The translations under genes and the position numbers were made by a program. From a virus, in IMG/VR virus record IMGVR_UViG_3300046660_000235, positions 1 to 40,286 of that record: 40,286 bases of DNA; one strand, given 5' to 3'. This document shows, one piece after another, positions 2 to 34,639 of this stretch; position 1 is the stretch's first letter; every line of letters begins with the position of its first letter. The notes under the pieces are model-generated. The model was given only the letters and a program-made list of their open reading frames with translations, was not told where the DNA came from and searched no databases.

Positions 2-880
2 TTAATGTTCCCATTTGGGGCATTAGCACAGGGGTTTGCAACATTCAAGCAACCAACAGATACCGTTATAGTAACCACGCCTGGTCAATTTAAATCAGCC
101 ATAGCAAATTCAAAGCCTTTGGTGGTCATAGTTAGAGGCGAATTAAAAGGTACAGGTATATACTACTCAACATCAAATAAGCTAATACGTGGCTTAAAAG
201 GGGCTACTATCACAGGAATTACATTGGGGTTGGCTACAGTTGAAAATATTAAGATACAAAATCTTATTTTTAGGTATCAGGTAAGTGATCCCTGCATTTT
301 GGTAAAGTATAATTCAAAAAACATAACCGTTGATCACTGCGAGTTTTATCACGATAGGTTACATGGATGGGATTATTGGGGCAAACATATTTCTATTACA
401 CGTGGATCTGATATGGTAACCATTTCTTATTGCAAATTCCATGATGCTAATTTATCGGTGCTTATAGGCGGTGGAGATGACGCAGCAAACGTGCAGGATG
501 ACTTTGGTAAACTACACGTTACCATGCATCATAATTATTTTTATTACATAAGTGAGCGTGAACCATCCATTGTTACAGGTAGCCTTCACATGTATAATAA
601 CTATCATCTGAATAATTCAGGATATAGCATAGGTGTTAGAAATAGCGCACAAGCTATCATTGATGGAGATGTATTTTATAACTGTAAGCGTCCTATTACA
701 ACTGTATTCAGCGGCGAAATACCGGGATTTGTTGGCGAAAACAAAACAAATTACACTAATTCAGGAGCAAATCAAATAAGCACTCCGGCATTACTATGGG
801 CTGCACCTTATAAATTTACTATTATGTCATCTACTTATATCAGGGCCTATATCCCTTCACATACAGGAGCAACTTTATGA
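2..880 (+). CDS. Pectate-lyase-like (PL1) right-handed beta-helix protein, 5' partial, active site degraded
   Basis: The first visible Met is at position 5, but the frame is open to the edge and residues 1-9 (MFPFGALAQ) read like the end of a signal peptide with an A-x-A cleavage site, so the real start probably lies left of the window. The PL1 fold is recognisable: VDHCEF (about 108-113), ITRGSDMVTISYCKFHD (131-147), GKLHVTMHHNYF (168-179), HMYNNY (195-200). Compared from memory with Bacillus Pel, one calcium Asp (D110) and the catalytic Arg (R185, in R-x-P) remain. The D-G-x-x-D calcium pair is G126/S130, the substrate Lys is L150 and the second Arg is V190. Fold is sure; pectate lyase activity is doubtful, and a binding or receptor role is an alternative. 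It overlaps the next gene by ATGA. Confidence 0.8.
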   Translation, partial: LMFPFGALAQGFATFKQPTDTVIVTTPGQFKSAIANSKPLVVIVRGELKGTGIYYSTSNKLIRGLKGATITGITLGLATVENIKIQNLIFRYQVSDPCILVKYNSKNITVDHCEFYHDRLHGWDYWGKHISITRGSDMVTISYCKFHDANLSVLIGGGDDAANVQDDFGKLHVTMHHNYFYYISEREPSIVTGSLHMYNNYHLNNSGYSIGVRNSAQAIIDGDVFYNCKRPITTVFSGEIPGFVGENKTNYTNSGANQISTPALLWAAPYKFTIMSSTYIRAYIPSHTGATL

Positions 881-1434
881 AAGTTCACTTTTTAAGTCCA
901 TACCGAACCGATAGAAACATCGGGCTTGCCATTAACCAGGCTATCAACGACATTCACACTAACGATGAAGATTGGATATGCTTAACAGATATGGATGTGC
1001 TGTGGTTAAGACCTGATTCTAAATCCCAATTAATAGAAATACTTTCAAATACCGATTACGACGTATTAGGCGCAACTACTAATAGGTTGGCTAACGACTA
1101 TCAACTATGTTTAACATGGAATGGTGAAAGTGCATTTGATAATACAGATATTAAATATCACCTTGAAATAGCTAATTATTTACATGAAAAAAACTATGCA
1201 ACTGTTATACCTTATGATCATGTATTAGCTGCATTCTGCCTTTGTTTTAGAGTATCAACATGGAAGTTATTGGGTGGATTTGAAGAAAATACAATTACAT
1301 TTGATACTACATTTTCTTTGCATGCGCAACAGCATGCGCTTAAATTAGGGTTGATGACAGGGATATATTTATTTCACGGATATAGGATAGATTCCGCCAA
1401 CCCCCGTTATGATGTTAAGCACCTGATTGCGTAG
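877..1434 (+). CDS. GT-A fold glycosyltransferase (GT2-like)
   Basis: A small nucleotide-sugar-dependent glycosyltransferase is the best reading. The metal/UDP-sugar motif is the DMD at residues 38-40 within WICLTDMDVLWL. An acceptor-side block follows: FRVSTWKLLGGFEEN (124-138), then FDTTFSLHAQQHALKLG (142-158), resembling the GxDxxF..R..GY region of GT2 enzymes, and a late His in LFHGYR (165-170). At 185 residues it is short, with no membrane segment. The start overlaps the stop of the beta-helix gene by ATGA, so the two are probably co-translated as a surface-polysaccharide cassette. Its 3' end overlaps the convergent portal gene by 20 bp. The acceptor is unknown; possibilities include host glycan change that blocks superinfection, or virion glycosylation. 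Confidence 0.7.
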   Translation: MKVHFLSPYRTDRNIGLAINQAINDIHTNDEDWICLTDMDVLWLRPDSKSQLIEILSNTDYDVLGATTNRLANDYQLCLTWNGESAFDNTDIKYHLEIANYLHEKNYATVIPYDHVLAAFCLCFRVSTWKLLGGFEENTITFDTTFSLHAQQHALKLGLMTGIYLFHGYRIDSANPRYDVKHLIA

Positions 1435-2809
1435 TATTATCAGGTATTGTAGGCGGCTGAATTATATCAGTTCCTTCGCTTATTCTTTTTAATGTGGTGA
1501 GGTTTTTATTTACGTAATGCTCATTCATATAAGCCTCAGTCTTTTCACCATATTTTAAAACGGCCCGCATTTCATTAAAAGTAAGTACTCCTGCAGGCAA
1601 TGATTTTAAATATTCGGCAACTGACTTCATGTTAACAGCCATTTCAGGGAGTTGTGTATAATCCCACTCAATAGCATCAACACCATATCCTTCACCTAAC
1701 ATGATAGTAAATGCCTCTCCTATTACATCACATACCGGAGCAATGGCATCATAAATGAATTTGAGTACCTCTGTGCCAACATTATTATCAGTGCTGGCCT
1801 TTTGGTTATGGTAAGATAAAGGCACGTGATATGCCTTATAAACGTCTTCCTCGCTTGCGTTAATAACCTCCAGTAGCTTTAAGTCACCAATCGGTAAGCC
1901 AATATTTTGCCACGCTAATGAAATAGACGAAGGAAATACACGAGACATTTCATCATCTGAACGCCTGGCATCGATCATTTTTTGCTTTAACTGGTCTTTT
2001 TGATCTTTAGTCAGTTGATCTTCTTTATCACGAGGTGAAAGTATACCGAATACGCCGCCGTTCTTTGCTTGCTTTGTTACTTGTGTTTTACCCTCTTTTA
2101 TTGCCCTTAAACCTTCCCCATAAGCACGTAAAGGAGCTACTCCATATAGATATTCCATACGCCTGTCAAAAGGTGCTGGAGTGCCTGTTTTAATATGTTG
2201 TATTTCATCAATGTCAAAACGTGTTCTATTTGTATTTACTAAGATATAGCCACGTATTGGATCTAATAAATCATCAATATCAACAGCTATTTCCATATTT
2301 GGAAAACACCAAAGCTCTTTTGCTTTTTTGCCAACACGATTAGGATGTACGTATGTATTACCTTGAAGTAGATAACTCAGTATCGTAGTCCACATTAATT
2401 GTGTACCTGTCTGATATGGATTTGCAAACCCATTTGTAAGTAAAGTTTTCAATTGTGAAATATCAACTTCCTCGATTGCTTGCATTTTCAATACATGGGC
2501 TTGAACAGGATCGGTTTTGAAAAGTTCTTTTGAGCGTTGGAGTTTTGCTTTATCTTTTATTTTATACCCAACAATTGGGCAATTAAGAACTTTTTTTGTG
2601 ATTAAATCAGTTACTTCATATACAGCACCAATTGTTTTAAAAGTTTGATAGTAATCAATACAATCCGGGTTTATAGATGGCAACGCATCATTTAAACTTA
2701 TGTTAATCATTTGAAGGGCATTAACAAAAGCAGATGATTGCTTTGATGCTATTTGTTCGCTTACCCGCTTACTTATTGTATTACCAAATACAAGATCGAC
2801 AATGCCCAT
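1415..2809 (-). CDS. Phage portal protein (HK97/SPP1-like)
   Basis: The 464-residue protein has the typical portal layout: an N-terminal region with YEVTDLITKKVLNCPI (about 63-78), a clip/wing region with QGNTYVHPNRVGKKAKELWCFPN, then HIKTGTPAPF..YLYGVAPLRAYGEGL (about 205-234), which matches the HK97 portal block before the long helix. The C-terminal half has KLLEVINASEEDVYKAYHVPLSYH. It forms the dodecameric DNA entry ring at the capsid vertex. It follows the terminase genes in transcription order, but an intervening operon and a terminator (2870-2898) separate them. The next downstream gene is convergent, so the expected protease and capsid genes do not follow inside the window. Confidence 0.88.
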   Translation of the reverse strand: MGIVDLVFGNTISKRVSEQIASKQSSAFVNALQMINISLNDALPSINPDCIDYYQTFKTIGAVYEVTDLITKKVLNCPIVGYKIKDKAKLQRSKELFKTDPVQAHVLKMQAIEEVDISQLKTLLTNGFANPYQTGTQLMWTTILSYLLQGNTYVHPNRVGKKAKELWCFPNMEIAVDIDDLLDPIRGYILVNTNRTRFDIDEIQHIKTGTPAPFDRRMEYLYGVAPLRAYGEGLRAIKEGKTQVTKQAKNGGVFGILSPRDKEDQLTKDQKDQLKQKMIDARRSDDEMSRVFPSSISLAWQNIGLPIGDLKLLEVINASEEDVYKAYHVPLSYHNQKASTDNNVGTEVLKFIYDAIAPVCDVIGEAFTIMLGEGYGVDAIEWDYTQLPEMAVNMKSVAEYLKSLPAGVLTFNEMRAVLKYGEKTEAYMNEHYVNKNLTTLKRISEGTDIIQPPTIPDNTTQSGA

Positions 2810-5212: not shown

Positions 5213-6661
5213 TTACCAGCCTATATCAAACTCCTTTTGTACAGCTAATTCAAAGTAGTAACGCATCATAAAAACATCTCTCCAATCCGGTGACCGACCA
5301 ATATTTTCTTTTACTTTTTCTTTTGGCAATACCCTTAGCTTTCTTTCATCGTCTGATTTAAATGTTTTCATCCACGAAAGTTCTGTTGCAATATCTTCTT
5401 TATCTTGACCTGTTAATTCACATTCAATGTAAAATTCATGCTTATTTATCTTTTCGGCCAATCCGTAAATACATTGCGCTTGTAAATTGGCATAGTTTTC
5501 TTTTTCCTCTTTATTCTGTGGATTGTCCTTGCTCTCTTTTGTTCTTATTGGTGTAGCATTATTTATAAATCCTATGATTTCACAATTGTCAATTACACCG
5601 CCTCCTACGCCATCAGCATCACCCAGGCAATTCTTTTTGGGAATACCATGCTTTAAACGTAAAGCCATGATAGCATCCTGTATATCCGTTGTAGCACTTA
5701 TATCAAATGAAATTTGTTCTACCACTACCCATCCATAAAAAACACATATACGGGCTTTGTCAGAGCCGAAACGGGCAATATCAGCTATTATATATTTATC
5801 ATCAGTTTTTAAAACATGATTATTTGAAAATATAGATATAATATCGTCATACGAACACATTGCATTCGGGTCATCGTCATATTCCCAATTGCCCTTTAGT
5901 AACCTTTCTTTCTTTGCCTTATCTTTAGTCCTTTCAAGGCGCTCAATGTATCCGCTGTCAATATGTGGGTTATCCTGTACCAAAGCAACTAAGTATCGTT
6001 GTATGGGCAGTAAAACACCTTTCTTTGCAGGTAGATAGAAAGTTGTATAGAGCCAATTCTTTTTAGGGTTTGCGGTAATGAATAACTTACCTAACAATCC
6101 GTATTTATCATTGTATTGCCTGCCTATACGGGTTTTAAGAACTTCGTAAGCACCAAAGTCAATTTCACCACCTTCTTCAATCCATCCTCCGGTATATTCA
6201 GTAGATCCAAAACGTTCATATAAGGGATCACGAGGTAAAAACTTTAATTCTAAAAGGTCAATCCGGCTTCCATTTCTAAATTGAATGAAATTCTTTTGCC
6301 CATTGTATTTGAAATCAACATTTGATTTGAAGCCATATTCTAATGCTACTTTGAAAAATGTAATTAAAGTTGATTCAGTTATACGCTTTAATTCCTCCCT
6401 TCCAATGAACCATCGAGTGCCAGGGAATAACATACACATAAATAAAAGCCAAACGCAGCCTGTCCACGATTTAGCCCCTCCAGCAGCACCCCCGTAAAGA
6501 AATTCCTCTGTAACATTGTCACGCAATATTTCTAATGCTTGCCTTTGTTTTTCGTGAATCCCTTTTTTAGTAATTACAATAAAATCAAAAAGCCCTCTTT
6601 TGAAGGCTTCTATTCGTAATTTAACTAAATCTATTCTATTTATAATCTCATTTAGTTGCAT
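5213..6661 (-). CDS. terL: Terminase large subunit
   Basis: The DNA-packaging motor and nuclease, 482 residues. ATPase motifs: Walker A GGAAGGAKS (57-65), Walker B-like WIEEGGE (160-166) and a coupling motif ITANP (194-198). The C-terminal RNase H-like nuclease has Asp in IIADIARFG (D293), in LGDADGVGGG (D347) and in SPDWRDVF (D458/D461). It overlaps the small subunit gene by 14 bp, supporting a coupled pair. The next transcription unit (5111) starts from its own promoter just past the stop. Confidence 0.95.
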   Translation of the reverse strand: MQLNEIINRIDLVKLRIEAFKRGLFDFIVITKKGIHEKQRQALEILRDNVTEEFLYGGAAGGAKSWTGCVWLLFMCMLFPGTRWFIGREELKRITESTLITFFKVALEYGFKSNVDFKYNGQKNFIQFRNGSRIDLLELKFLPRDPLYERFGSTEYTGGWIEEGGEIDFGAYEVLKTRIGRQYNDKYGLLGKLFITANPKKNWLYTTFYLPAKKGVLLPIQRYLVALVQDNPHIDSGYIERLERTKDKAKKERLLKGNWEYDDDPNAMCSYDDIISIFSNNHVLKTDDKYIIADIARFGSDKARICVFYGWVVVEQISFDISATTDIQDAIMALRLKHGIPKKNCLGDADGVGGGVIDNCEIIGFINNATPIRTKESKDNPQNKEEKENYANLQAQCIYGLAEKINKHEFYIECELTGQDKEDIATELSWMKTFKSDDERKLRVLPKEKVKENIGRSPDWRDVFMMRYYFELAVQKEFDIGW

Positions 6662-11664: not shown

Positions 11665-11790
11665 TTAATTTTGTTTAATGAGAGTATTGAAAAATTTACT
11701 CGCCTCATTTAATGCCTCACATGGCAAATACCCGTTGCTTATATATAAATCATAAACAATTTTAAACATACTATTTACTAACTGGTACAT
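11665..11790 (-). CDS. Small ORF, 41 residues
   Basis: MYQLVNSMFKIVYDLYISNGYLPCEALNEASKFFNTL..., an amphipathic helical peptide. It starts inside the last codons of the preceding small ORF (20-bp overlap) and fills most of the 11639-11790 interval. Supported mainly by direction and packing. Confidence 0.45.
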   Translation of the reverse strand: MYQLVNSMFKIVYDLYISNGYLPCEALNEASKFFNTLIKQN

Positions 11791-11911
11791 GATTTTTTAA
11801 TTTTAATAATTGGTTACTTATTGATTCTAAACGTGCTTTTGATTCTCTTATAAGCCTATCATTTATGGCTATATTTTGAGTTGTTTTGCGTATTCTTTCT
11901 TCGTGTGACAT
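11771..11911 (-). CDS. Small ORF, 46 residues, coiled-coil-like
   Basis: MSHEERIRKTTQNIAINDRLIRESKARLESISNQLLKLKN..., a basic helical peptide with heptad-like spacing. Its ATG shares one base with the upstream stop (TAATG at 11911), a strong sign of a real, translationally coupled gene. Ends with TAG. Confidence 0.58.
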   Translation of the reverse strand: MSHEERIRKTTQNIAINDRLIRESKARLESISNQLLKLKNHVPVSK

Positions 11912-12126
11912 TATATTTTTATCCAATTATTAACTATTTTTTCAACTGATGCACCTTGCAATAAGGTATCAACATTAACAGTAAACCAATGAAATCCATT
12001 ACTCCCGTCATATTCAAAATCAAACTTTTCGTTTGTCAGGGTTTGATATATCTTTTCTTGATGAAATTTCTCAACCACCATAAATTTAACCTCAAATGGA
12101 TTGCCTATATAAATTTGATTTTCCAT
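11911..12126 (-). CDS. Unknown small protein
   Basis: A 71-residue protein with beta strands and aromatic residues (KFMVVEKFHQEKIYQTLTNEKFDFEYDGSNGFHWFTVN). It starts 2 bp after the small membrane ORF ends and overlaps the next ORF as TAATG. Unrecognised. Confidence 0.6.
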   Translation of the reverse strand: MENQIYIGNPFEVKFMVVEKFHQEKIYQTLTNEKFDFEYDGSNGFHWFTVNVDTLLQGASVEKIVNNWIKI

Positions 12127-12128
12127 AA

Positions 12129-12260
12129 TTAATATCCAAAAGCATGAGCATGATAATTACCATTAGCTATTTGTACAACTGCAATTACAATCGCAACTGC
12201 TAAAATTGTGCTTGCTATAATCGGTAAGTAATTTACTTTTAAAAATGTTAGTGCTTTCAT
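12129..12260 (-). CDS. Small single-pass membrane ORF, 43 residues
   Basis: MKALTFLKVNYLP then a hydrophobic helix IIASTILAVAIVIAVVQIA (14-32) and a His-containing tail (GNYHAHAFGY). It lies 42 nt downstream of a hairpin leader (12302-12358) that is the second copy of the element preceding the lipoprotein gene at 4713. The shared leader suggests the two envelope-directed genes are controlled alike. Confidence 0.62.
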   Translation of the reverse strand: MKALTFLKVNYLPIIASTILAVAIVIAVVQIANGNYHAHAFGY

Positions 12261-15606: not shown

Positions 15607-16545
15607 TTAAAAAAGCTGTGTTTTAATTGGCGAGCCTTTGCCGTTCCAAAATATCTTTTCAATAGTTTTCTTTTTGTTATTGGTTGCAGATAATGAACTG
15701 CGATGTGTGAAAGCCATTACTTCAGTAAATGGAGTACCGTATTCAGAAATATAAACCGGATGTGGGCAATAGTTAGCCCATTTATAAAACTTTTCGTGAT
15801 CAAATCCCCCTTCTTTATATTCCCCAGTTCCTTTATATGGAATATCACAATAAATAACAGGATATTTTGAATTAATTAAAACATTTTCGTAACTACCATT
15901 TGTGATCTGTAGATTCTGTAGATTCTGTAGATTCTGTAGATTCTGTAAGTGATGTATGCGCTCCAGTTGAACAAATCGTTCTAAATTTTGCATGTCGAAT
16001 CTGCCTTTGGTTGTTTTGCCTATGTAATCACAAAAGTAAATTCGCCTTTGTTGAACATCTTTAATATTTAAAAGTTCAGGCAAATCAATTTCTAATTCAT
16101 GCATTGAATCTAAACATCCAAATACAACAAACTGATGTGCCATCCTTTTAATATTTTCAATATCTATTCCATATAAATAACCCTTTTCACTATTGTTACC
16201 AAAGCTCCAGCAACTCATTACATAGCCTGAATACCAGTCAGCATCTGTTCTATTACATTGTTCAAAGAATACCTCACGTGTTACCCATTCAAAAAATTTA
16301 GGCTCAAGTGTTTTGTTGTTTTTGAGATACTCCACCAAGTAATAAATATGACTGTTTAACTCATTGTAATGGACATTAAATCTATAATCCCGGATTGCGG
16401 TAAATGAAACAGATCCGCCACCACCGAACAAATCATAAAAATCTGTAATTTCAGGATGGCGACTCGTTATGAAGTGTAAAATACGAGACGCAAGCTTCCT
16501 TTTGGACCCCATGTACGGAATTGAGGGCGCATTTTTATCCAACAT
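15607..16545 (-). CDS. DNA adenine-N6 methyltransferase, D12 class (Dam-like)
   Basis: A 312-residue D12-class methyltransferase. SAM site: PYMGSKRKLASRIL (10-23) and DLFGGGGSVS (38-47). Catalytic motif IV: YCDIPYKGTGEY, with DIPY (234-237) replacing DPPY, a variant I recall from other phage enzymes. A helix after residue 190 carries four LQN triplets (200-211). Transfers methyl to adenine N6, probably to escape host restriction or mark phage DNA. It overlaps the HNH gene by 11 bp and is followed at once by a 52-residue ORF. Confidence 0.88.
   Translation of the reverse strand: MLDKNAPSIPYMGSKRKLASRILHFITSRHPEITDFYDLFGGGGSVSFTAIRDYRFNVHYNELNSHIYYLVEYLKNNKTLEPKFFEWVTREVFFEQCNRTDADWYSGYVMSCWSFGNNSEKGYLYGIDIENIKRMAHQFVVFGCLDSMHELEIDLPELLNIKDVQQRRIYFCDYIGKTTKGRFDMQNLERFVQLERIHHLQNLQNLQNLQNLQITNGSYENVLINSKYPVIYCDIPYKGTGEYKEGGFDHEKFYKWANYCPHPVYISEYGTPFTEVMAFTHRSSLSATNNKKKTIEKIFWNGKGSPIKTQLF
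15907..15947. repeat. 9-bp tandem repeat inside the adenine methyltransferase
   Basis: Four exact copies of CTGTAGATT (15907-15942) plus a partial fifth. On the coding strand they give Leu-Gln-Asn four times. The unit keeps frame, so changes in copy number would change length without breaking the protein. Confidence 0.85.
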
Positions 16546-24123: not shown

Positions 24124-24669
24124 TTATTTTGATTCTGTAAGATTAATTCCACGATCTGACCAACTTTGATCTTGAATTAATCTATAAGTCCTTACTACTG
24201 CAAAATTTAATAGTTTAAAATAACTTATTCTTATTCCATATTTTTCAGTTTCCTTTAAAGTATTAAGCACCATTTTTTCAATTTCGATTGCTGATATAGA
24301 TGCCATATCGTTTTGATAAATAAAATCTGATATTGCACCCATAGCAATATTAGATACCGTTAATTCTGGATGAACCATGTTGTTATAAAGTAATTCAACA
24401 TTTGAAATCTCATATCCTATGCTCCCGTTTAAAGTTACCGTTTTTATATCCTTAGATGTTAAGGTTTGAATGGGCATACTTATAACCCTTAATCTGATAC
24501 ATTGGATGTAAAACGTATCTAAAAATGGTATCCTGAAATGTACACCTCCGCTTAATAATTTCTGATTCTTGCCAAATCTAACTCTTATACCTCGCTCCCA
24601 CGGCTGTATGACAATCCAAAACTTTACTATGTTTAATAAATACTCAATTAACCCTTTTATGCTTTCCAT
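24124..24669 (-). CDS. SPFH/Band-7 (stomatin/prohibitin-type) membrane protein
   Basis: A 181-residue protein. A short hydrophobic N-terminus (YLLNIVKFWIVIQP, about 10-23) may anchor it, followed by a classical SPFH core: ERGIRVRFGKNQKLLSGGVHFRIPFLDTFYIQCIRLRVISMPIQTLTSKDIKTVTLNGSIGYEI, and the late EIEKMVLNTLKETEKYGIRISYFKLLNFA. The long C-terminal coiled coil of flotillins/HflK is missing. SPFH proteins form membrane microdomain rings and can control proteases such as FtsH. In phages, a role in host membrane remodelling, lysogeny control or counter-defence is possible. Confidence 0.82.
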   Translation of the reverse strand: MESIKGLIEYLLNIVKFWIVIQPWERGIRVRFGKNQKLLSGGVHFRIPFLDTFYIQCIRLRVISMPIQTLTSKDIKTVTLNGSIGYEISNVELLYNNMVHPELTVSNIAMGAISDFIYQNDMASISAIEIEKMVLNTLKETEKYGIRISYFKLLNFAVVRTYRLIQDQSWSDRGINLTESK

Positions 24670-27692: not shown

Positions 27693-28124
27693 CTAAATTT
27701 TGATTCTTTTAGAATATTTTCGCTTAGGTTTATCCTCTTTCATTGCAGAGCCCCTTTTAGCATATTTCCGTTTTTTAAACAGGTTTTCAATAGGTTCAAT
27801 ATCTCCTGCATTGGCTTCTTTAATTCCTTTTTTTAATGACGTTTTTTCTTTTGATGTTAAGCTTTCTTTGATAAAAACAGGTTCAGATTGTTGAACTGTA
27901 TAGAATGATTCAGCCTCTGTATTATCAATTTTAATTGCGCCTTTGGCTTTATTTACGCCTCCTATCACCTCAACTTCATGGTAAAAGAATTGCCAAATTC
28001 CATTTGGATCTAAATCAACTTTTAATTGCTTGTTTGATTCAGGATTATTTGTTATAATAGTTCCTACCAAGCCGTCGAACATACTGTTTGGTTTATTTAT
28101 TAAAATCTTATCGCCTGGTTTCAT
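27693..28124 (-). CDS. Putative KOW/SH3-like protein with basic tail
   Basis: A 143-residue protein. N-terminus MKPGDKILINKPNSMFDGLVGTIITNNPESNKQLKVDLD..WQFFYHEVEVI fits a KOW/SH3-type barrel. The C-terminal 40 residues are very basic (KKRKYAKRGSAMKEDKPKRKYSKRIKI), so nucleic-acid binding is likely. Start overlaps the upstream stop by ATGA (28121-28124). Confidence 0.62.
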   Translation of the reverse strand: MKPGDKILINKPNSMFDGLVGTIITNNPESNKQLKVDLDPNGIWQFFYHEVEVIGGVNKAKGAIKIDNTEAESFYTVQQSEPVFIKESLTSKEKTSLKKGIKEANAGDIEPIENLFKKRKYAKRGSAMKEDKPKRKYSKRIKI

Positions 28125-28348
28125 AATCCAAATAATGATTTAAAGAATGTGCTTTTAGTTTTTGTCTTGAACTCGTTTTTGTTCGTTGATGGCTGCGAAA
28201 GGCTGGTTAAAACGCTTTCCAATGTTCGGCCGGTTTTTGATTCAGCCAGTTCAACCTTAAATATTGGGGGGTTTAATTTTTGCTTTTCGTATGTCCTGTT
28301 TATTGTGCCCTCAATTATTGGTTTCGGTGTTGGGTTAAAGTCTTTCAT
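28121..28348 (-). CDS. Unknown small basic protein
   Basis: A 75-residue protein, low in hydrophobics, ending KTKTKSTFFKSLFGL. Possibly disordered with an amphipathic end. It starts 1 bp after the upstream gene. Confidence 0.55.
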   Translation of the reverse strand: MKDFNPTPKPIIEGTINRTYEKQKLNPPIFKVELAESKTGRTLESVLTSLSQPSTNKNEFKTKTKSTFFKSLFGL

Positions 28349-28349
28349 T

Positions 28350-28553
28350 TTAATATCCGATTAAAATATCCAATTGATTAACTCTATTTCTTAAATACTC
28401 AACCTCGCTGCCCAATTGGTTAATTTTTGCTATCAAAAGCCGTGCAATGTCATTTAAGCCACTTTCATCAAGTGCGTGGTTATCTCCCTCACAAAGCCAT
28501 TTCAAAGCTTGTTGTGCATCGTGAGACGTTGGTTGTGGTGTTATTCTTTCCAT
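28350..28553 (-). CDS. Unknown helical protein with coiled coil
   Basis: 67 residues from MERITPQPTSHDAQQALKWLCEGDNHALD; the C-terminus, LLIAKINQLGSEVEYLRNRVNQLDILIGY, has heptad spacing. A 14-residue upstream extension to 28595 would overlap the previous gene and is not preferred. Confidence 0.58.
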   Translation of the reverse strand: MERITPQPTSHDAQQALKWLCEGDNHALDESGLNDIARLLIAKINQLGSEVEYLRNRVNQLDILIGY

Positions 28554-28579
28554 TTTAATATTTGATTTATTTGCTTTAA

Positions 28580-28777
28580 TTAGCAGGCTAAACACTGAAG
28601 CCCACGTGACATAAATTCCTCACTTATTATAAATTTTTTTGTGTGGAACGGATTGGATGCAGAAACATATTTACACATTTCTGAAACTGATTCTTTTTCA
28701 TCCAATAATTCAGACGTACTCATGAAAGATAATTTGTTTTGATAATCTCTTTCGGCTTTAGTTAAATAGGTTTTCAT
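28580..28777 (-). CDS. Unknown small protein
   Basis: 65 residues from MKTYLTKAERDYQNKLSFMSTSELLDEKE, ending RGLQCLAC. The longer frame up to 28840 is less likely because the MKTY start follows a normal A-rich leader and resembles the MKTY start of the 29776 gene. No family known. Confidence 0.57.
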   Translation of the reverse strand: MKTYLTKAERDYQNKLSFMSTSELLDEKESVSEMCKYVSASNPFHTKKFIISEEFMSRGLQCLAC

Positions 28778-28884
28778 TGTGTTTTGCTTTAAATGGTTTT
28801 TATTGTAATTTTGACTTCGAAGTTCTAAGCTTCTTAACACTTTTCTTTTTATGCTTTAAAAGATATGTGTTGTTGTTTTTAAAA

Positions 28885-28919
28885 TCTATAAGCCCGTGTG
28901 ATTCTCAATCAGCGGGCTT
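28885..28919 (-). terminator. Hairpin terminator candidate
   Basis: Minus strand AAGCCCG (28919-28913) pairs with CGGGCTT (28896-28890), with an inner TGATT/AATCA stem, then an AT-rich stretch rather than a pure T run. Follows gene 28926-29162. Confidence 0.65.
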
Positions 28920-28925
28920 TATTTA

Positions 28926-29162
28926 TTAATAAAATCCGCAATCGGAAAGTATTTTTTGTGTTTGTTCTGAATTGTCAAGCGGCGTGTCATGCTCTGTGTC
29001 TTCCCAAACAATAACAAGATTTCCAAACTTTAGTTCAACCTTGCCTTGAGATCGATTTTGCAGCCCATTGCCATAATACTCAATTTCAGTTCCTTCAACG
29101 ATTTCTTTTGTTTCCGTGTGTGATTTGTATTCAATCCAACGTTGTGTTAATGTTAATTCCAT
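28926..29162 (-). CDS. Unknown small acidic protein
   Basis: A 78-residue acidic protein, beta-rich in the middle (GTEIEYYGNGLQNRSQGKVELKFGNLVIVWEDTEHDTPLD), resembling a small SH3-like barrel. It precedes the terminator at 28890. Not recognised. Confidence 0.58.
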   Translation of the reverse strand: MELTLTQRWIEYKSHTETKEIVEGTEIEYYGNGLQNRSQGKVELKFGNLVIVWEDTEHDTPLDNSEQTQKILSDCGFY

Positions 29163-29234
29163 TTTGCTTAATTTTTAGTTCCTGTAAAAGCTACGATACT
29201 TTTAACGCTTCAGACAAGCTAACAGGAGATATGG

Positions 29235-29471
29235 TTATATATAATAATTAAATTCATTTATTCTTTTTATGACCTCGTCCATTGTATTATGATTAGTGGT
29301 CTTAACTTTTTTACCAATTCTTTTAACAGAATATGAATCTACTTTTTCAGGTTGAAAATTAATTACACAATCACAATTTTTAAAACATTGACATCCGTTA
29401 AATTCAGTTTGTCCAGTATAATGATATACTTCATATTGGTATCCAGTCTCAATAAGTTCCTTATGTATCAT
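29235..29471 (-). CDS. Unknown small protein with Cys cluster
   Basis: A 78-residue protein with GCQCFKNCDC (about 26-35), four Cys likely to bind zinc, then a basic strand and C-terminal helix. No family assigned. Confidence 0.58.
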   Translation of the reverse strand: MIHKELIETGYQYEVYHYTGQTEFNGCQCFKNCDCVINFQPEKVDSYSVKRIGKKVKTTNHNTMDEVIKRINEFNYYI

Positions 29472-29533
29472 AACATTGATTTATTTAAGGTGTTTATAAT
29501 TTATGATGATGATTAAGATAGGACCGTGCATTA

Positions 29534-29776
29534 TTATAGTTTTTCGATTATTATAAATTGACAGTCTGAAATTCTATCTCCCATTAAAAATGAGTTGAAA
29601 ATTAATGATTCAAACTTCAAGCATATATCTTTGGCGTTTGAATATCCTGATTTTTTCAATTGCCTATACACTTCATTGCCATATTTTTCAGGAGTATCTA
29701 TAGTTGAAGCATATTCAGTATGTGCTGATAACTGATTTTGAAACGCTTCGTATTGTGCTCTTTCGTAAGTTTTCAT
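29534..29776 (-). CDS. Unknown small protein, first gene after promoter site f
   Basis: 80 residues from MKTYERAQYEAFQNQLSAHTEYASTIDTPEKYG. A 34-residue extension up to 29878 would run through promoter site f and encodes only low-complexity sequence, so the internal Met is chosen. Leader about 40 nt. Function unknown. Confidence 0.6.
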   Translation of the reverse strand: MKTYERAQYEAFQNQLSAHTEYASTIDTPEKYGNEVYRQLKKSGYSNAKDICLKFESLIFNSFLMGDRISDCQFIIIEKL

Positions 29777-29823
29777 AATAATGATATTAAATGTGTTTAA
29801 ATTATTTGCTTTTTTTTGATGAT

Positions 29824-29881
29824 GTAAATATAAAAACATTTTTATAATAAAACCAAATTTATTTGAAAATAATTTCATAAA
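29824..29881 (-). promoter_or_regulatory. Minus-strand promoter with tandem operator boxes (site f)
   Basis: The -7 is TATATTTA (29832-29825), with TTTG 21 bp upstream. Box 1, ATAAAAACATTTTTATAAT from 29830; box 2, TTGAAAATAATTTCATAA from 29863. It begins the early region right after the lysis-unit terminator. Confidence 0.6.
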
Positions 29882-29912
29882 TAAAAAAGCCTTATATTTC
29901 TATAAAGCTTTT
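29881..29912 (-). terminator. Rho-independent terminator after the lysis unit
   Basis: Minus strand AAAAGCTTTAT (29912-29902) pairs with ATAAGGCTTTT (29895-29885), ten pairs plus one wobble and a 6-nt loop, then a T-rich tail. Ends the unit with endolysin and holin-like genes. Confidence 0.75.
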
Positions 29913-29978
29913 AGTAAATGAGTTGCCTACCCTTTTTATTCGGATCTCCCGGCAATTGAATAGGTCTTGGTAGTATTT

Positions 29979-30227
29979 TTATTTCGTGTCTGACTTTGTA
30001 GTTTCTTTGACCACGCTTGCATCACTTGGCACATTCGCTACAGTTCCACCTGTAACATTATAATCTTTTGCTAAGAAACCGAAACCGGCCACCAATGCAG
30101 CATATATAAGTTGTTTCCAATCCCTATCAAATACAAAGTCTCCTTTGCTTATTAATGGTTGTACAACTACCCACACAGCCCCCAATAGGCCAATGATAGT
30201 TGTTTTGTAATTTCCTAAAGTTTTCAT
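29979..30227 (-). CDS. Holin-like small membrane protein
   Basis: An 82-residue protein with two hydrophobic segments, TTIIGLLGAVWVVVQPLI (about 9-26) and LIYAALVAGFGFLA (about 40-53), then a polar tail. Its pattern (NYKTT..GL..A......W..A..AG.G..AKDYNVTGG) is like small holin-type proteins common next to phage endolysins. It lies 11 bp downstream of the endolysin gene and just before a terminator. Confidence 0.65.
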   Translation of the reverse strand: MKTLGNYKTTIIGLLGAVWVVVQPLISKGDFVFDRDWKQLIYAALVAGFGFLAKDYNVTGGTVANVPSDASVVKETTKSDTK

Positions 30228-30238
30228 TTTTTATATTT

Positions 30239-30811
30239 TTAGTGATTAATTAAGTTGTGATTATAAGGCTTCAATCTTGCAAGCCATGTTTTTAAAAATT
30301 GCCTTTTATTTGGCTCTGCATTTGCAATATCAATATACCTATCCCGGCGAAGTTCATTAAGTTGGTTATAAACATCTTCTCCGTTTAATGAATTGATAAC
30401 AGTTAATGTTTGGTTGCCAATTATTCCGTCCACTATCAATGCGCCGCTTTTAAGCGCATTACAGGCACGTTGCATGAATTTGGCTGCAATGCCTAACCCC
30501 ATGTTTACAGATGCGTCATAAGCGCAGTTTGCCACGTTCTGGTCAATAATTTGCGATAGCTTCAACGGATTCCAGTAATTATCTAAATAGAATTTAATTA
30601 TTTTAGCCTGTAACTCCTTTTCATGACTTAAAGCCAGGTTCATTGCAGGTACTAAAGCAGGCTTATGTTTATCAATTATAGCCCATCCACTCCAATTGGG
30701 ATTAGCCGAACGATCAATACCGGCATACGTCTCGGACATAGCACTTGTTTTCGGGGCATATAACCCTTCGTTAGCTTTGCGTATTTGATCAGCGTCATTA
30801 AAACTTGCCAT
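30239..30811 (-). CDS. Endolysin, GH108 N-acetylmuramidase with PG-binding_3 domain
   Basis: A 190-residue lysozyme. The N-terminal GH108 pattern: ANEGLYAP with the likely catalytic Glu15, SETYAGIDRSANPNWSGW (26-43). The C-terminal PG-binding_3 pattern: ANCAYDASVNMGLGIAAKFMQRACN...VDGIIGNQTLTVI (about 94-139). No signal peptide, so it needs a holin. The ATG shares one base with the stop of the upstream micro-ORF (TAATG at 30811). Confidence 0.87.
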   Translation of the reverse strand: MASFNDADQIRKANEGLYAPKTSAMSETYAGIDRSANPNWSGWAIIDKHKPALVPAMNLALSHEKELQAKIIKFYLDNYWNPLKLSQIIDQNVANCAYDASVNMGLGIAAKFMQRACNALKSGALIVDGIIGNQTLTVINSLNGEDVYNQLNELRRDRYIDIANAEPNKRQFLKTWLARLKPYNHNLINH

Positions 30812-30903
30812 TACATTATATTATCTAAAAAGTAAAACAAAGGTACAGTTACCAAAATAAAAATTATCCAACATATTAATGCTGCTTTGTCGTGTTTATT
30901 CAT
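30811..30903 (-). CDS. Micro-ORF 5, single-pass membrane peptide, 30 residues
   Basis: MNKHDKAALICWIIFILVTV, then PLFYFLDNIM: one hydrophobic helix of about 20 residues with a charged N-terminus. Its start overlaps the previous ORF by ATGA and its stop overlaps the endolysin ATG (TAATG). Candidate holin, antiholin or spanin part. Confidence 0.65.
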   Translation of the reverse strand: MNKHDKAALICWIIFILVTVPLFYFLDNIM

Positions 30904-31007
30904 GGTAAAAGTAGTTTATATGCTTTGCACCGCATCTTTTCAATTTCTTCTGATGTTATTCTCACCAAATTCACTTTCGTCTTTACTGGCTTTAATTTTT
31001 TATTCAT
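30900..31007 (-). CDS. Micro-ORF 4, basic soluble peptide, 35 residues
   Basis: MNKKLKPVKTKVNLVRITSE, then EIEKMRCKAYKLLLP: highly basic, no membrane segment. Overlaps the previous ORF by 8 bp and the next by ATGA. Real-gene support comes from the chain of overlaps. Confidence 0.55.
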   Translation of the reverse strand: MNKKLKPVKTKVNLVRITSEEIEKMRCKAYKLLLP

Positions 31008-31101
31008 GGTCTGCAATTATTAAGGCTATCAAAAGTAAAGTAGCTGCTATTATTAACAGTACCATGTCGGAGCATTTCCAGCGATTATAACACATCGCCA
31101 T
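31000..31101 (-). CDS. Micro-ORF 3, membrane peptide, 33 residues
   Basis: MAMCYNRWKCSDMVLLIIAA, then TLLLIALIIADHE: a basic, Cys-containing start and one membrane helix. Starts on the stop of micro-ORF 2 (TGATG at 31101). Confidence 0.6.
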   Translation of the reverse strand: MAMCYNRWKCSDMVLLIIAATLLLIALIIADHE

Positions 31102-31193
31102 CAAGTTCCGATTATATATGCCAACAAAAAGCAAAGTGCAATAGCAGCCACATACGCACTCACAAGCCATTTAACTGAATCTTTTATGTCCAT
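31101..31193 (-). CDS. Micro-ORF 2, membrane peptide, 30 residues
   Basis: MDIKDSVKWLVSAYVAAIAL, then CFLLAYIIGT: an amphipathic start and a strong membrane helix. Follows micro-ORF 1 by 4 bp and overlaps micro-ORF 3 as TGATG. Confidence 0.6.
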   Translation of the reverse strand: MDIKDSVKWLVSAYVAAIALCFLLAYIIGT

Positions 31194-31197
31194 AACA

Positions 31198-31278
31198 CTA
31201 ATCTTTTTTAAACATTTCTGATCTGATAGGAGCAAGGCATATAACAATTATCATAAACCAACCCACTACTTCTATCAT
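31198..31278 (-). CDS. Micro-ORF 1, membrane peptide, 26 residues
   Basis: MIEVVGWFMIIVICLAPIRS, then EMFKKD: a short hydrophobic N-terminal helix and a charged end. Opens the micro-ORF cascade. A possible -7 element TAACTTTA (31295-31288) lies directly upstream, giving a very short leader. Confidence 0.5.
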   Translation of the reverse strand: MIEVVGWFMIIVICLAPIRSEMFKKD

Positions 31279-31340
31279 TTTTTATTTTAAAGTTACTATT
31301 TTAAAATGTGAAAATAAAAAAGCCTCGCAAGAGTTATAAA

Positions 31341-31631
31341 TCACTTTTTTGTTTTGATGTATAAGTATAATCTTAATTTAGTTACAAAGGTTGGTATGTT
31401 AATCGTAAAGAACACCCATGCCAAATGTAGTCCATTGAGGTATCCTAATACAACTAAGAGATAATAAATAGCATAGGCGATATATAAATAGGCTTTAGAT
31501 AAGAATAAATCAATCCATAATGACCGCATTTTACCATGATCTGTTGATTTATGAAACTCATACCCGATTAATGATGATATGATAGCCATAGCAAAAAGAA
31601 TGATGAATACTATAATATCATTTGCACTCAT
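31341..31631 (-). CDS. Small polytopic membrane protein
   Basis: A 96-residue protein with about three membrane segments: IIVFIILFAMAIISSLIGY, AYLYIAYAIYYLLVVLGYL and LHLAWVFFTINIPTFV. It overlaps the upstream BhlA-like gene by ATGA. Possible holin or antiholin; not assigned to a family. Ends before a weak CTC-TTGC-GAG hairpin with a T run. Confidence 0.65.
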   Translation of the reverse strand: MSANDIIVFIILFAMAIISSLIGYEFHKSTDHGKMRSLWIDLFLSKAYLYIAYAIYYLLVVLGYLNGLHLAWVFFTINIPTFVTKLRLYLYIKTKK

Positions 31632-31831
31632 CTTTTGTGAAGTATAGTTTTAATCTCAGATAGTAAACTTCGTGTTTCTTTATTGGATTCATTAGCATGA
31701 TCAAATTGTCTTTCTGTAGTTTGCTTCCATTCATCACGCTCTTTTTTGTGTTCTTTTATAAGGTAAAGAACAAACCAAGACAGTCCGGCTATTACAATTC
31801 CAGGTAAACCATATTGAGTTAATTCAATCAT
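31628..31831 (-). CDS. BhlA/UviB holin-like protein
   Basis: A 67-residue protein: a membrane segment near the N-terminus (YGLPGIVIAGLSWFVLYLI, about 7-25) followed by a charged coiled coil (KEHKKERDEWKQTTERQFDHANESNKETRSLLSEIKTIL). This N-terminal helix plus basic coil is the BhlA/UviB layout of holin-like proteins. ATGA overlaps on both sides. Confidence 0.68.
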   Translation of the reverse strand: MIELTQYGLPGIVIAGLSWFVLYLIKEHKKERDEWKQTTERQFDHANESNKETRSLLSEIKTILHKR

Positions 31832-32139
31832 GGTTTTCTGATCTCTGAATAGATTTCAATTACGGTTCTGTTGAAATGAGCGACCTCTCCTGACATTTCC
31901 TTTTTAAAATCTTTAAACTCATTTTTATATTCTAATAAAGAACTTTCAATTGTAGCCTTAACTACATTCGCTATAAATTCTTCTTTTTCTTTTGCCTTAT
32001 TTGCAAAGTACTTATTTACAGTATAAATAACGGTACTTACAATACCGCATGTTGCTATAACAAATTGCCACAATAAAGTGTAATCTATGTGATCAGGCGG
32101 TATTACGTTTGTCAATGTTCTATTTTTTAAAGATTCCAT
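31828..32139 (-). CDS. Membrane-anchored coiled-coil protein
   Basis: A 103-residue protein with one membrane segment (LLWQFVIATCGIVSTVIYTV, about 22-41) and a C-terminal coiled coil (KEKEEFIANVVKATIESSLLEYKNEFKDFKKEMSGEV). It resembles the following BhlA-like protein in layout, so the two may be diverged copies or partners. It overlaps the upstream gene by 20 bp. Confidence 0.63.
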   Translation of the reverse strand: MESLKNRTLTNVIPPDHIDYTLLWQFVIATCGIVSTVIYTVNKYFANKAKEKEEFIANVVKATIESSLLEYKNEFKDFKKEMSGEVAHFNRTVIEIYSEIRKP

Positions 32140-32494
32140 GCTTTGTTCCGATTACTAAGACAATTAAAGTAGTAACTAAAACAGAGCCATTATAAATAAA
32201 AAAATACAATAAAGGGATATTAATTATATTATATAAAGTTAACATAATTATTATAAAATTTATAATAACTGCGTATTCCGTTATTGAATGAAAATCTTTA
32301 TTTAAATGTGAACTATTAGTTAATTTTTTATCTATATTTAACCAAATTAAAGTTAGTATAGTTAATAAATAATAAAATCCCTTTGCATTAACTGAGTACC
32401 AAGACCCATAAAATAATTCCCATAGATAGAAATTAAATCCAGTAGAGTAACAAATTAACACAAATATGCTTATATAAATTCTTTTATCCAACAT
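32120..32494 (-). CDS. Small four-helix membrane protein
   Basis: A 124-residue, very hydrophobic protein with roughly four membrane segments (IYISIFVLICYSTGFNFYL, GFYYLLTILTLIWL, YAVIINFIIIMLTLYNII, PLLYFFIYNGSVLVTTLIVLVI). A lysis or membrane-effector role is possible from position. Overlaps the upstream gene by 11 bp and the next one by 20 bp. Confidence 0.62.
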   Translation of the reverse strand: MLDKRIYISIFVLICYSTGFNFYLWELFYGSWYSVNAKGFYYLLTILTLIWLNIDKKLTNSSHLNKDFHSITEYAVIINFIIIMLTLYNIINIPLLYFFIYNGSVLVTTLIVLVIGTKHGIFKK

Positions 32495-33050
32495 CTTTTA
32501 CGCACTGTGATCCGTTCCATACATATCCTTGAGGACAATTATGTGGATCATTTTGAGGTTTAACTTTTATATCTTCTACATGTGGCTTAACAAACACCTG
32601 ATAAATATATTCAGCTACAGCAGTAAATTTCTGTACAGGAGTTCCGGGAGAAAGCAAAACGGCTAATGCGCTACCTACACCAGAGCTAATAGTTTTCCAA
32701 ACATCCCCATCAAGTTTAGACAGATACGTTTTTAAGGCTTCTAAAGCATCTTCAAGAGTTAGTGGTATCTTATTATCAACCGCCTTTAAATCGTTTAGTA
32801 ACCGGTCTAAAAAGCCGTGTATTAAATCAGGAGACAAGTCTGGATACTTATCTGCAATAATTTCCTTAATTTCAGCAGGCACTTTGTCCAGATTGGCATT
32901 TACAACTGCAATTACGCCATATGCCCATTCCGCTGCTTTTTTTTCTTCGTCTGTTAACTTTTCGTAAAGTTCCTCTGAATGTTTAAATATGTCTGCGAAC
33001 CAATCGCCAAACTTTTTTACTAAATCGGCTAAAAAATCAAAAATGCTCAT
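32484..33050 (-). CDS. Tail-end/lysis-region protein with Cys-containing C-terminal knot
   Basis: A 188-residue mostly helical protein, N-terminus amphipathic (FDFLADLVKKFGDWFADIF), central hydrophobic patch (TISSGVGSALAVLLSPGTPVQKFTAVAEYIY) and a short C-terminal CPQGYVWNGSQCVKDVG motif with two Cys. I recall such C-P-x-G-Y...C endings in Bacteroidota phage proteins near the lysis genes. Not assigned; membrane-active or virion component are both possible. Confidence 0.6.
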   Translation of the reverse strand: MSIFDFLADLVKKFGDWFADIFKHSEELYEKLTDEEKKAAEWAYGVIAVVNANLDKVPAEIKEIIADKYPDLSPDLIHGFLDRLLNDLKAVDNKIPLTLEDALEALKTYLSKLDGDVWKTISSGVGSALAVLLSPGTPVQKFTAVAEYIYQVFVKPHVEDIKVKPQNDPHNCPQGYVWNGSQCVKDVG

Positions 33051-33070
33051 AGTTATATATGTTTAAATTT

Positions 33071-34639
33071 TTACGTAATAATTCCTGATAAAATTGATTG
33101 CTTTGTTGTTGTGATTACTCCACATCTGAAATCATTACCGGTTGCGCCGGTTATATCAAATGTATGCGTAGTTTGTTGAACATTGTCCCTGGCGTGAAGT
33201 ATTGAGGTATTCTCGTTAGCTCCGGTAGTAGCTTTAAACAATGCAGCCTTAGTCGGCTGATCTGTAACTACAGTAACAACATTACCTACCTTTGATGAAC
33301 TTGTAATAACTGGTAGCGCTAATGAGATATAAGCAGGTGATACGGTTTCTGATAATTCAACCGCGCCAAATCCTTCCTGTGCATTACCGTAGGGAATCTG
33401 TATAACATACACATTACTGCCCTTGCTTAAAATTGTACCATAATTGGCTGCAATACTTTTTCCTGCCAAATAGGTCCCGGTTAGATCAATTCTGATGGAA
33501 ATGGAAACTCTTAATAAGTCATACTTTATACGCTCACTTATTCCGGAATTTAAATTTGATTTATATGGATCTGTTTTCTCAATAACTACACGAACCATGT
33601 TATTATGCTCAAATGCAGTAACCCGGCTGATCATTTCCCGGTAAAAAAGGTATTCGATAGCATTAGCATAAGAAGTACACCAAACAAAATTACTGCCCAT
33701 AGCAGTACGCTGAGAGGCTATAAACGTTCCAAAGTGCGCACGCTGTGAAGCGGTACTATACTGATACCGATGTATAAAATCATTATAAAAACCTTTGTTG
33801 GCAATTGTAGTGGTCATTTGCCCTTGAAGATAAGTTAATATTTGCGCTTCAGTTCCCCATGTACCTGCTACAGTTGCGTCAACCATATCTTTAAAACGAC
33901 TGGTTGATTCAGAGCTAATGCGTAATTCACGTGTAGTTGATTGTGACGGAATTCCCAAATAAGCTAATCCTGTGTCTTTTGATCGGCCATAATCCGTTTT
34001 GCCATTGGTGGCAGTATCGGCCTGTATAAGTTCCGAATTACGTCCGCCTAAAAAATAAGGCAACATCATTTTTGAACATCCCTTTTGACCATTACGATAA
34101 CTGAAAGCAGATGGATAGCGGCCAAGGTTGCTAAACATGTAAGCTCTAACGGTATCAATCAGGCCAAATAATTCATTACCCTGATTAGTTCCTGCAACTC
34201 CATTGATATAATCCCAACCTAAACGACCGCTTGATGATGCATACATTTCCTGTCCGTGATTTGGATACCGTGTTACTTTAGTTGCACCTATAGTTACATC
34301 AAAGAAAGCAGCCCCGGCACTTGTCCAAGCTGTTGCCACGTAATCAGGTATAAGTTCAATAACTCCAGTGGTCGGGTTTTTCCATCTGTCAGTTGGGAAA
34401 TAAACATTATATTGCACACGCCCTGTTGCTTCAGTTGTATTTATATCTGATAACGGGCCGTCATAGGCATTTGTATTATCGGTAAGCTGTATATTACTTC
34501 TAAAAGCATACATTTCCATTACCCAACGTTCCACATCGGGTTTATCTGTATCCTGTACAAATATACCAGTAGCATCGTATAAAGCATTACACACGAATAC
34601 TGCTATTGATGTAGCTGCTGGAAAAGCTTTAATATCCAT
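33071..34639 (-). CDS. Tail-associated protein, possible polysaccharide deacetylase-like (NodB-type) region
   Basis: A 522-residue protein. The middle has features that recall CE4-type deacetylases: YPNHGQEM (125-132, a His block), PSAFSYRNGQ (176-185), then FIHRYQ and SYANAIEYLFYRE (about 334-347). The usual N-terminal catalytic TFDDG is not seen, so activity is uncertain. The C-terminal 150 residues are beta-rich with GNVVTVVTDQPTKAALFKATTG, like an Ig-type or receptor-binding domain. It follows the fibre gene by 1 bp, so a virion location and glycan contact are likely. Confidence 0.55.
   Translation of the reverse strand: MDIKAFPAATSIAVFVCNALYDATGIFVQDTDKPDVERWVMEMYAFRSNIQLTDNTNAYDGPLSDINTTEATGRVQYNVYFPTDRWKNPTTGVIELIPDYVATAWTSAGAAFFDVTIGATKVTRYPNHGQEMYASSSGRLGWDYINGVAGTNQGNELFGLIDTVRAYMFSNLGRYPSAFSYRNGQKGCSKMMLPYFLGGRNSELIQADTATNGKTDYGRSKDTGLAYLGIPSQSTTRELRISSESTSRFKDMVDATVAGTWGTEAQILTYLQGQMTTTIANKGFYNDFIHRYQYSTASQRAHFGTFIASQRTAMGSNFVWCTSYANAIEYLFYREMISRVTAFEHNNMVRVVIEKTDPYKSNLNSGISERIKYDLLRVSISIRIDLTGTYLAGKSIAANYGTILSKGSNVYVIQIPYGNAQEGFGAVELSETVSPAYISLALPVITSSSKVGNVVTVVTDQPTKAALFKATTGANENTSILHARDNVQQTTHTFDITGATGNDFRCGVITTTKQSILSGIIT

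Follow-up and report, generated by a model that had tools for sequence, protein, structure and literature searches.

A chain of five coupled micro-ORFs leading into the endolysin gene of a tailed phage

Introduction

Does the apparently empty DNA that precedes the endolysin gene of a tailed phage contain genes, and if so might they take part in lysis? Genes of 26-35 codons are below the usual size for annotation, and are commonly missed in phage genomes as a result. A preliminary description of the DNA studied here noted a 470-bp gap between a cluster of membrane-protein genes and a GH108 endolysin gene, and proposed that it contains a chain of five such ORFs that could together form a set of holin, antiholin and spanin. 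We have analyzed this chain, its neighbors and its possible relatives.

Results

The phage and its lysis region

The window, meaning the whole stretch of DNA analyzed, is the 40,286-base virus record IMGVR_UViG_3300046660_000235, from a tailed phage. Its structural landmarks are as follows.

5213-6661, minus strand: terminase
1415-2809, minus strand: portal
38530 down to 33071: tail genes, assigned by position and size

The best relatives of the terminase are 60-67% identical. Sphingobacterium species are among them, and Pedobacter provides a looser match, so that the host is likely to belong to the Sphingobacteriales. The nearest relatives found have mainly the terminase in common with this phage, at an identity of no more than 67%, and their lysis genes differ.

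Some other parts of the window are unusual in themselves. At the left end two ORFs (5-1434, plus strand) lie on the strand opposite to the phage genes; one encodes a pectate-lyase-like beta-helix protein (Pfam E = 2.8e-26), and the other looks glycosyltransferase-like by eye, with no match in Pfam. A protein with an SPFH/Band 7 (stomatin-like) domain is encoded in the early region (24124-24669, minus strand; Pfam E = 8e-16). Within the gene for a D12 DNA adenine methyltransferase there is a perfect 9-nt tandem repeat of 4.7 copies (15906-15947) encoding LQN repeats in frame, such that changes in copy number would alter the length without a frameshift. Upstream of the lysis region, a 522-aa protein (33071-34639, minus strand) has one match in INPHARED, at 29%, in a record named Staphylococcus phage IME1318_01, which is odd for a Bacteroidota phage.

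Following the tail genes there are genes for proteins of 188, 124, 103, 67 and 96 aa, then a 62-nt gap, the micro-ORFs (m1-m5), the endolysin and an 82-aa protein. The five genes upstream of the gap overlap one another, at distances of -11, -20, -4 and -4 nt.

32484-33050, minus strand: 188-aa soluble protein, heading the lysis region
32120-32494, minus strand: 124-aa multi-pass membrane protein with three hydropathy segments
31828-32139, minus strand: 103-aa holin candidate, a membrane helix with a charged tail; weak match to phrog_2073, holin (E = 0.01)
31628-31831, minus strand: 67-aa holin candidate, an N-terminal membrane helix with a charged tail
31341-31631, minus strand: 96-aa protein with at least two membrane segments and no family match; -4 overlap with the 67-aa gene
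31279-31340, minus strand: 62-nt gap between the membrane cluster and m1
31198-31278, minus strand: m1, 26 aa, MIEVVGWFMIIVICLAPIRSEMFKKD; one short membrane segment and a basic C-terminus
31101-31193, minus strand: m2, 30 aa, MDIKDSVKWLVSAYVAAIALCFLLAYIIGT; one membrane segment; starts 4 nt past the m1 stop codon
31000-31101, minus strand: m3, 33 aa, MAMCYNRWKCSDMVLLIIAATLLLIALIIADHE; one membrane segment; TGATG with m2
30900-31007, minus strand: m4, 35 aa, MNKKLKPVKTKVNLVRITSEEIEKMRCKAYKLLLP; basic, net charge +7, no membrane segment; 8-nt overlap with m3
30811-30903, minus strand: m5, 30 aa, MNKHDKAALICWIIFILVTVPLFYFLDNIM; one membrane segment; ATGA with m4 and TAATG with the endolysin
30239-30811, minus strand: endolysin, 190 aa, Glyco_hydro_108 and PG_binding_3; no signal or membrane segment
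29979-30227, minus strand: 82-aa holin candidate, 11 nt past the endolysin stop codon

The endolysin matches Glyco_hydro_108 and PG_binding_3 of Pfam (E = 1.3e-9 and 8.1e-10), in both cases above the curated cut-offs (38.9 vs 21.2 bits and 39.2 vs 24.6 bits), and a PHROG endolysin family with E = 4.3e-25. Glu15, which corresponds to the catalytic glutamate, is invariant in the alignment. We found neither an export signal nor a SAR helix in this protein. An endolysin without an export signal requires a membrane-permeabilizing partner of the holin type, and thus one is needed here.

The genes on either side offer candidates for this partner. The 82-aa protein has two hydrophobic segments by eye, of which one is scored by hydropathy. 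It has no PHROG, Pfam or NCBIfam assignment, and its homologues in the Sphingobacteriaceae (50-54% over about 54 aa, E = 1e-9 to 3e-10) adjoin endolysin genes. At one such locus (L261) the order is a membrane/coiled-coil protein, a lysozyme-like protein, the 82-aa homologue, and a protein that combines a lipobox with a membrane segment at its C-terminus. This arrangement makes the 82-aa protein a good candidate for the main holin, and weakens the case for the micro-ORFs in that role. The L261 locus (763-2132, reverse complement) is itself a compact Sphingobacteriaceae lysis cassette, in which the lipobox protein resembles a one-piece spanin. Upstream of the chain, the 67-aa protein matches phrog_9829, of unknown function, with E = 0.0014, and the holin family phrog_9316 weakly (E = 0.054). 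Homologues of the 188-aa protein stand at the head of similar cassettes; in Sphingobacteriaceae genome G165 they are 28-30% identical and lie directly upstream of genes for a putative cell-wall enzyme and membrane/coiled-coil proteins.

Structure of the chain

All five ORFs lie on the minus strand where the preliminary description had placed them, begin with ATG and end as claimed, and they fill the stretch that looks empty. The distances are +4 nt between m1 and m2, -1 between m2 and m3, -8 between m3 and m4, -4 between m4 and m5, and -1 between m5 and the endolysin, whose ATG is at 30811. The TGATG, 8-nt overlap, ATGA and TAATG junctions described earlier are thus all present; m1 and m2 are separated by a 4-nt gap, with no overlap. 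On geometry, m1-m5 and the endolysin form a coupled gene cluster of the short-overlap type, for which -4 or -1 nt is typical.

A choice of start codon was made for m3 alone among the five. In its frame an ATG further upstream, at 31170, would give a 56-aa product and a 70-nt overlap with m2; the upstream part of this longer reading, MACECVCGCYCTLL..., covers m2 and looks non-coding. The coupled internal ATG was chosen.

The sequence just upstream of m1 contains sigma70-like hexamers (TTCACA-17-TAAAAT, 31312-31284, 10/12 matches). Such matches occur near chance density in the region (22 vs 17.2 ± 4.2 expected), and we have not accepted this as a promoter. The TAnnTTTG motif of Bacteroidota is absent from the 62-nt gap. 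The G+C content of the region is 31%.

The chain compared with chance

In 275,507 trials, dinucleotide-preserving shuffles of the 529-nt region never produced a chain in which five or more coupled ORFs each had 25 codons or more, a frequency below 4e-6, where coupling at this strict setting means ATG ORFs at distances of -10 to +6. The thresholds were fixed after the chain had been seen, and looser P values for a chain of five are the safer guide: 1.3e-5 (at least 20 codons, ±10 nt), 1.2e-4 (at least 20 codons, ±20 nt) and 2.6e-3 (at least 15 codons, ±20 nt). The contention that a series of overlaps of this kind is unlikely by chance is supported. On the plus strand of the window, opposite the genes, the longest coupled chain never exceeded two.

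We found no other five-ORF chain in 1.06 Mb of Bacteroidota phage sequence, comprising the terminase-matched contigs and the window. There were two chains of four outside the window and one elsewhere inside it. The latter (11665-12163, minus strand) is in the early region and encodes soluble products of 23-56 aa, at distances of +10, -1 and +1.

Membrane and coding signals

Mean hydropathy over 17 residues is 2.44 for m1, 2.38 for m2, 3.30 for m3 and 2.72 for m5. In composition-matched random ORFs of 25-40 aa the median is 0.96, and just 1.4% reach 2.38. The expectation of one membrane helix in four of the peptides is thus borne out, as is the highly basic character of the remaining one, m4, which has no such segment. 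Across the 1.06 Mb, gene-free sequence contains 21 membrane micro-ORFs of 20-45 aa, seven of them in the window, including three in the chain. One other of these is coupled to a gene: in a terminase relative (L182, 19346-19447) a 33-aa single-helix ORF has a 4-nt overlap with a 117-aa gene, the sole further pair of this kind in the survey.

Scored in frame by codon usage, with the genes of the window itself as the training set, m1 gives 0.236, m2 0.173, m3 0.124, m4 0.084 and m5 0.213, where a typical gene scores 0.28 ± 0.12. The values of m1, m2, m3 and m5 lie within the range of 30-codon pieces of real genes and above 96-98% of open off-frame pieces. The signal of m4 is the weakest and is equivocal, while another frame of the same stretch scores 0.177. 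When the synonymous and amino-acid components are scored separately, each micro-ORF taken singly gives a modest signal. Cys makes up 3.9% of residues in the micro-ORFs vs 1.3% in the window's genes, three times as much and closer to random sequence, and Trp is also elevated.

The folding of the RNA is ordinary (z = -0.88). An RNA element was considered and rejected; Rfam gave just a sub-threshold chance match to a snoRNA, located elsewhere. Taking together the chain statistics, the independent evidence of hydropathy, the codon statistics and the ordinary folding, m1-m5 are very likely to be genuine micro-genes, and that most of the five are translated seems to us highly probable.

Searches for relatives

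The micro-ORFs have no homologues in PHROGs, NCBIfam, INPHARED, IMG/VR pattern scans or the phage relatives, and no significant match to a holin family in PHROG or NCBIfam. There was no match to Pfam for m2, m4 or m5; m5 gave a marginal match to phrog_369, of unknown function (E = 0.011). IMG/VR pattern scans with the endolysin, the 522-aa, 766-aa and 82-aa proteins, the joined micro-peptides and the m5-endolysin junction revealed no close relative of the lysis region, nor did INPHARED searches with the region DNA, m4, m5, the joined peptides, and the 82-aa and 67-aa proteins find a relative. The joined micro-peptides matched none of 50 terminase relatives.

GH108 homologues are present in 40 of 401 Sphingobacteriaceae genomes, most of them chromosomal-looking rather than prophage. 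Other genes stand beside the endolysin there, with no comparable chain upstream. The loci that carry homologues of the 82-aa protein likewise have no chain of this kind. Matches of the region by blastn in 102 Sphingobacteriaceae genomes were set aside as relatives, being mostly short and AT-rich (23-76 nt); one, at 30460-30416, falls within the endolysin coding sequence.

By eye, we saw no sequence shared between the micro-ORFs and the neighboring membrane proteins. Like holins, which have between one and three helices and are encoded beside an endolysin, m1, m2, m3 and m5 each have one strong hydropathy segment and adjoin the endolysin; m4 lacks such a segment. With no homologues, no family matches, and better holin candidates adjoining the chain, a holin or antiholin role for the micro-ORFs is a conjecture. 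The suggestion of a spanin fails. A regular-expression scan of 28000-33200 gave no lipobox, and each Cys in the micro-ORFs is preceded by I, L, M, K, R or I where a lipobox needs Gly, Ala or Ser. An i-spanin has an N-terminal helix and a periplasmic coiled coil; at most about 15 residues lie outside the helix in m1, m2, m3 and m5, and none of the five has a periplasmic domain.

Discussion

It is important to ask whether the chain might be something other than a set of genes. The low G+C content, the raised Cys and Trp, the weak codon score of m4 and the failure to find homologues would all fit chance ORFs in an AT-rich spacer. Such ORFs would very seldom form this chain in the shuffles, they would not explain the independent hydropathy result, and the opposite strand of the same DNA has chains of two at most; we regard this as very improbable. 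A larger gene, decayed or mis-assembled and broken by frameshifts, might leave frames that alternate between two registers as these do, and the sequence comes from a single virus record. This would need four indels together with a chance in-register ATG at every new junction, yet three-frame translation gives no recognizable protein and there are no family matches, so that such an origin is extremely improbable.

The ORFs, their junctions, their non-randomness, the hydrophobic helices and the operon context are all direct observations, and the assignment of the chain to a lysis-type operon is supported. Being adjacent to an endolysin does not itself prove that m1-m5 act in lysis. Our best reading is that the chain provides accessory membrane peptides in a fixed ratio with the endolysin, and/or forms a reinitiation relay that limits the endolysin dose. 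More specifically, we tentatively favor coupled micro-genes heading the endolysin transcription unit, with the membrane peptides as accessory lysis factors, and give this slightly less than an even chance. Translation, reinitiation, membrane insertion and any lysis role are what we infer for m1-m5. The geometry classically associated with termination-reinitiation is -4 or -1 nt; coupling falls steeply with distance and is incompletely efficient (PMC10666635), and Bacteroidetes reinitiate without a Shine-Dalgarno sequence (PMC6728339). On both grounds a ribosome entering at m1 could pass by serial reinitiation through the five cistrons into the endolysin. Four single-pass membrane peptides and one basic cytosolic peptide would then be made in fixed ratio with the endolysin, and the output of the latter would be kept low. 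The most likely task of the membrane peptides would be to weaken or depolarize the inner membrane or to tune the main holin. The main holin itself is probably one of the neighbors (the 82-aa protein downstream, or the 67- or 103-aa protein upstream).

Other roles deserve consideration. The cistrons might be translated as an attenuator in which the peptides matter little, the relay lowering and delaying endolysin synthesis as ribosomes are lost at each step. The unbroken coupling from m1 to the endolysin and the strongly distance-dependent, inefficient nature of reinitiation (PMC10666635) are consistent with this. A pure relay would not need strong membrane helices in four of five peptides, far beyond random expectation, and since these are too consistent to be by-products we prefer accessory peptides and judge the pure relay unlikely. 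Real small membrane peptides without a lysis role (for example superinfection exclusion, host take-over or small-toxin-like) might simply happen to sit in a late operon, and the existence of toxins with a single helix and about 29 aa, such as TisB, lends this idea some weight. Small phage proteins are abundant and functionally diverse (PMC11323111), and no homologues tie m1-m5 to lysis. The tight coupling to the endolysin and the placement within a cluster of membrane-protein and endolysin genes argue for the accessory peptides over unrelated membrane functions, which we consider rather unlikely. The complete holin/antiholin/spanin set first proposed would be in keeping with single helices adjoining the endolysin, and we recognized no other spanin candidate nearby. 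Established holins are larger than 26-33 aa, separate holin candidates exist, and the features of a spanin are missing from every micro-ORF, which together make the full set quite improbable. Finally, the four helices of 26-33 aa and the basic peptide might form a multi-peptide lysis clock, made from one relay, that acts as holin or holin regulator and sets the endolysin dose, so that no cistron of the lysis module would exceed 35 codons; this is decidedly unlikely.

Returning to coupled micro-genes with accessory peptides, the locus provides a clear and statistically strong case of a coupled micro-operon that occupies 470 bp of apparently empty DNA ahead of an endolysin. Few known lysis proteins would be as small as these peptides, should they act in lysis.

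Comparison with known systems

The holins, antiholins and pinholins such as lambda S, phage 21 S and T4 T are small membrane proteins encoded beside an endolysin without an export signal. The micro-ORFs likewise encode small membrane proteins adjoining a signal-less endolysin. In contrast to the known holins, which are longer and experimentally recognized, they are single helices with almost no extramembrane domain and have no sequence relation to them. Unlike the spanins (lambda Rz/Rz1) they have no lipobox or periplasmic coiled coil. TisB, Ldr and Fst are single membrane helices of about 30 aa able to depolarize membranes, and the membrane peptides are like them in size and form, whereas m1-m5 are coupled within a late phage operon. 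Disruptins are small cationic proteins that attack the outer membrane. As m4 is also small and cationic (+7), an analogy with the proteins so named (PMC9239132) might be drawn for m4 only; it is speculative, and m4 has no homology.

Gordonia phages have multi-gene holin-like cassettes of up to four genes encoding 1-4 helices, an organization stated to be undescribed for Gram-negative hosts (PMC9671378). As in those cassettes, which are partly overlapping, diverse and poorly conserved (PMC9671378), a run of small membrane-protein genes lies beside the endolysin. They differ in having an actinobacterial host, whereas the present phage, of Sphingobacteriales type, has four peptides of 26-33 aa with one helix each and a fifth that is basic, in addition to other membrane genes. 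The known multi-gene holin-like cassettes are thereby extended to peptides of 35 aa or fewer, and should these act in lysis, cassettes of the actinobacterial-phage type would also occur in phages of Gram-negative hosts. The -4 and -1 overlaps, in Bacteroidota without Shine-Dalgarno sequences, resemble those of coupled gene pairs (PMC6728339, PMC10666635). Such pairs usually join genes of normal size, whereas in this phage there are five junctions in succession, linking five tiny cistrons to one another and to the endolysin. The chain offers a simple system in which to see whether termination-reinitiation can proceed serially over five very short cistrons where Shine-Dalgarno sequences are not used.
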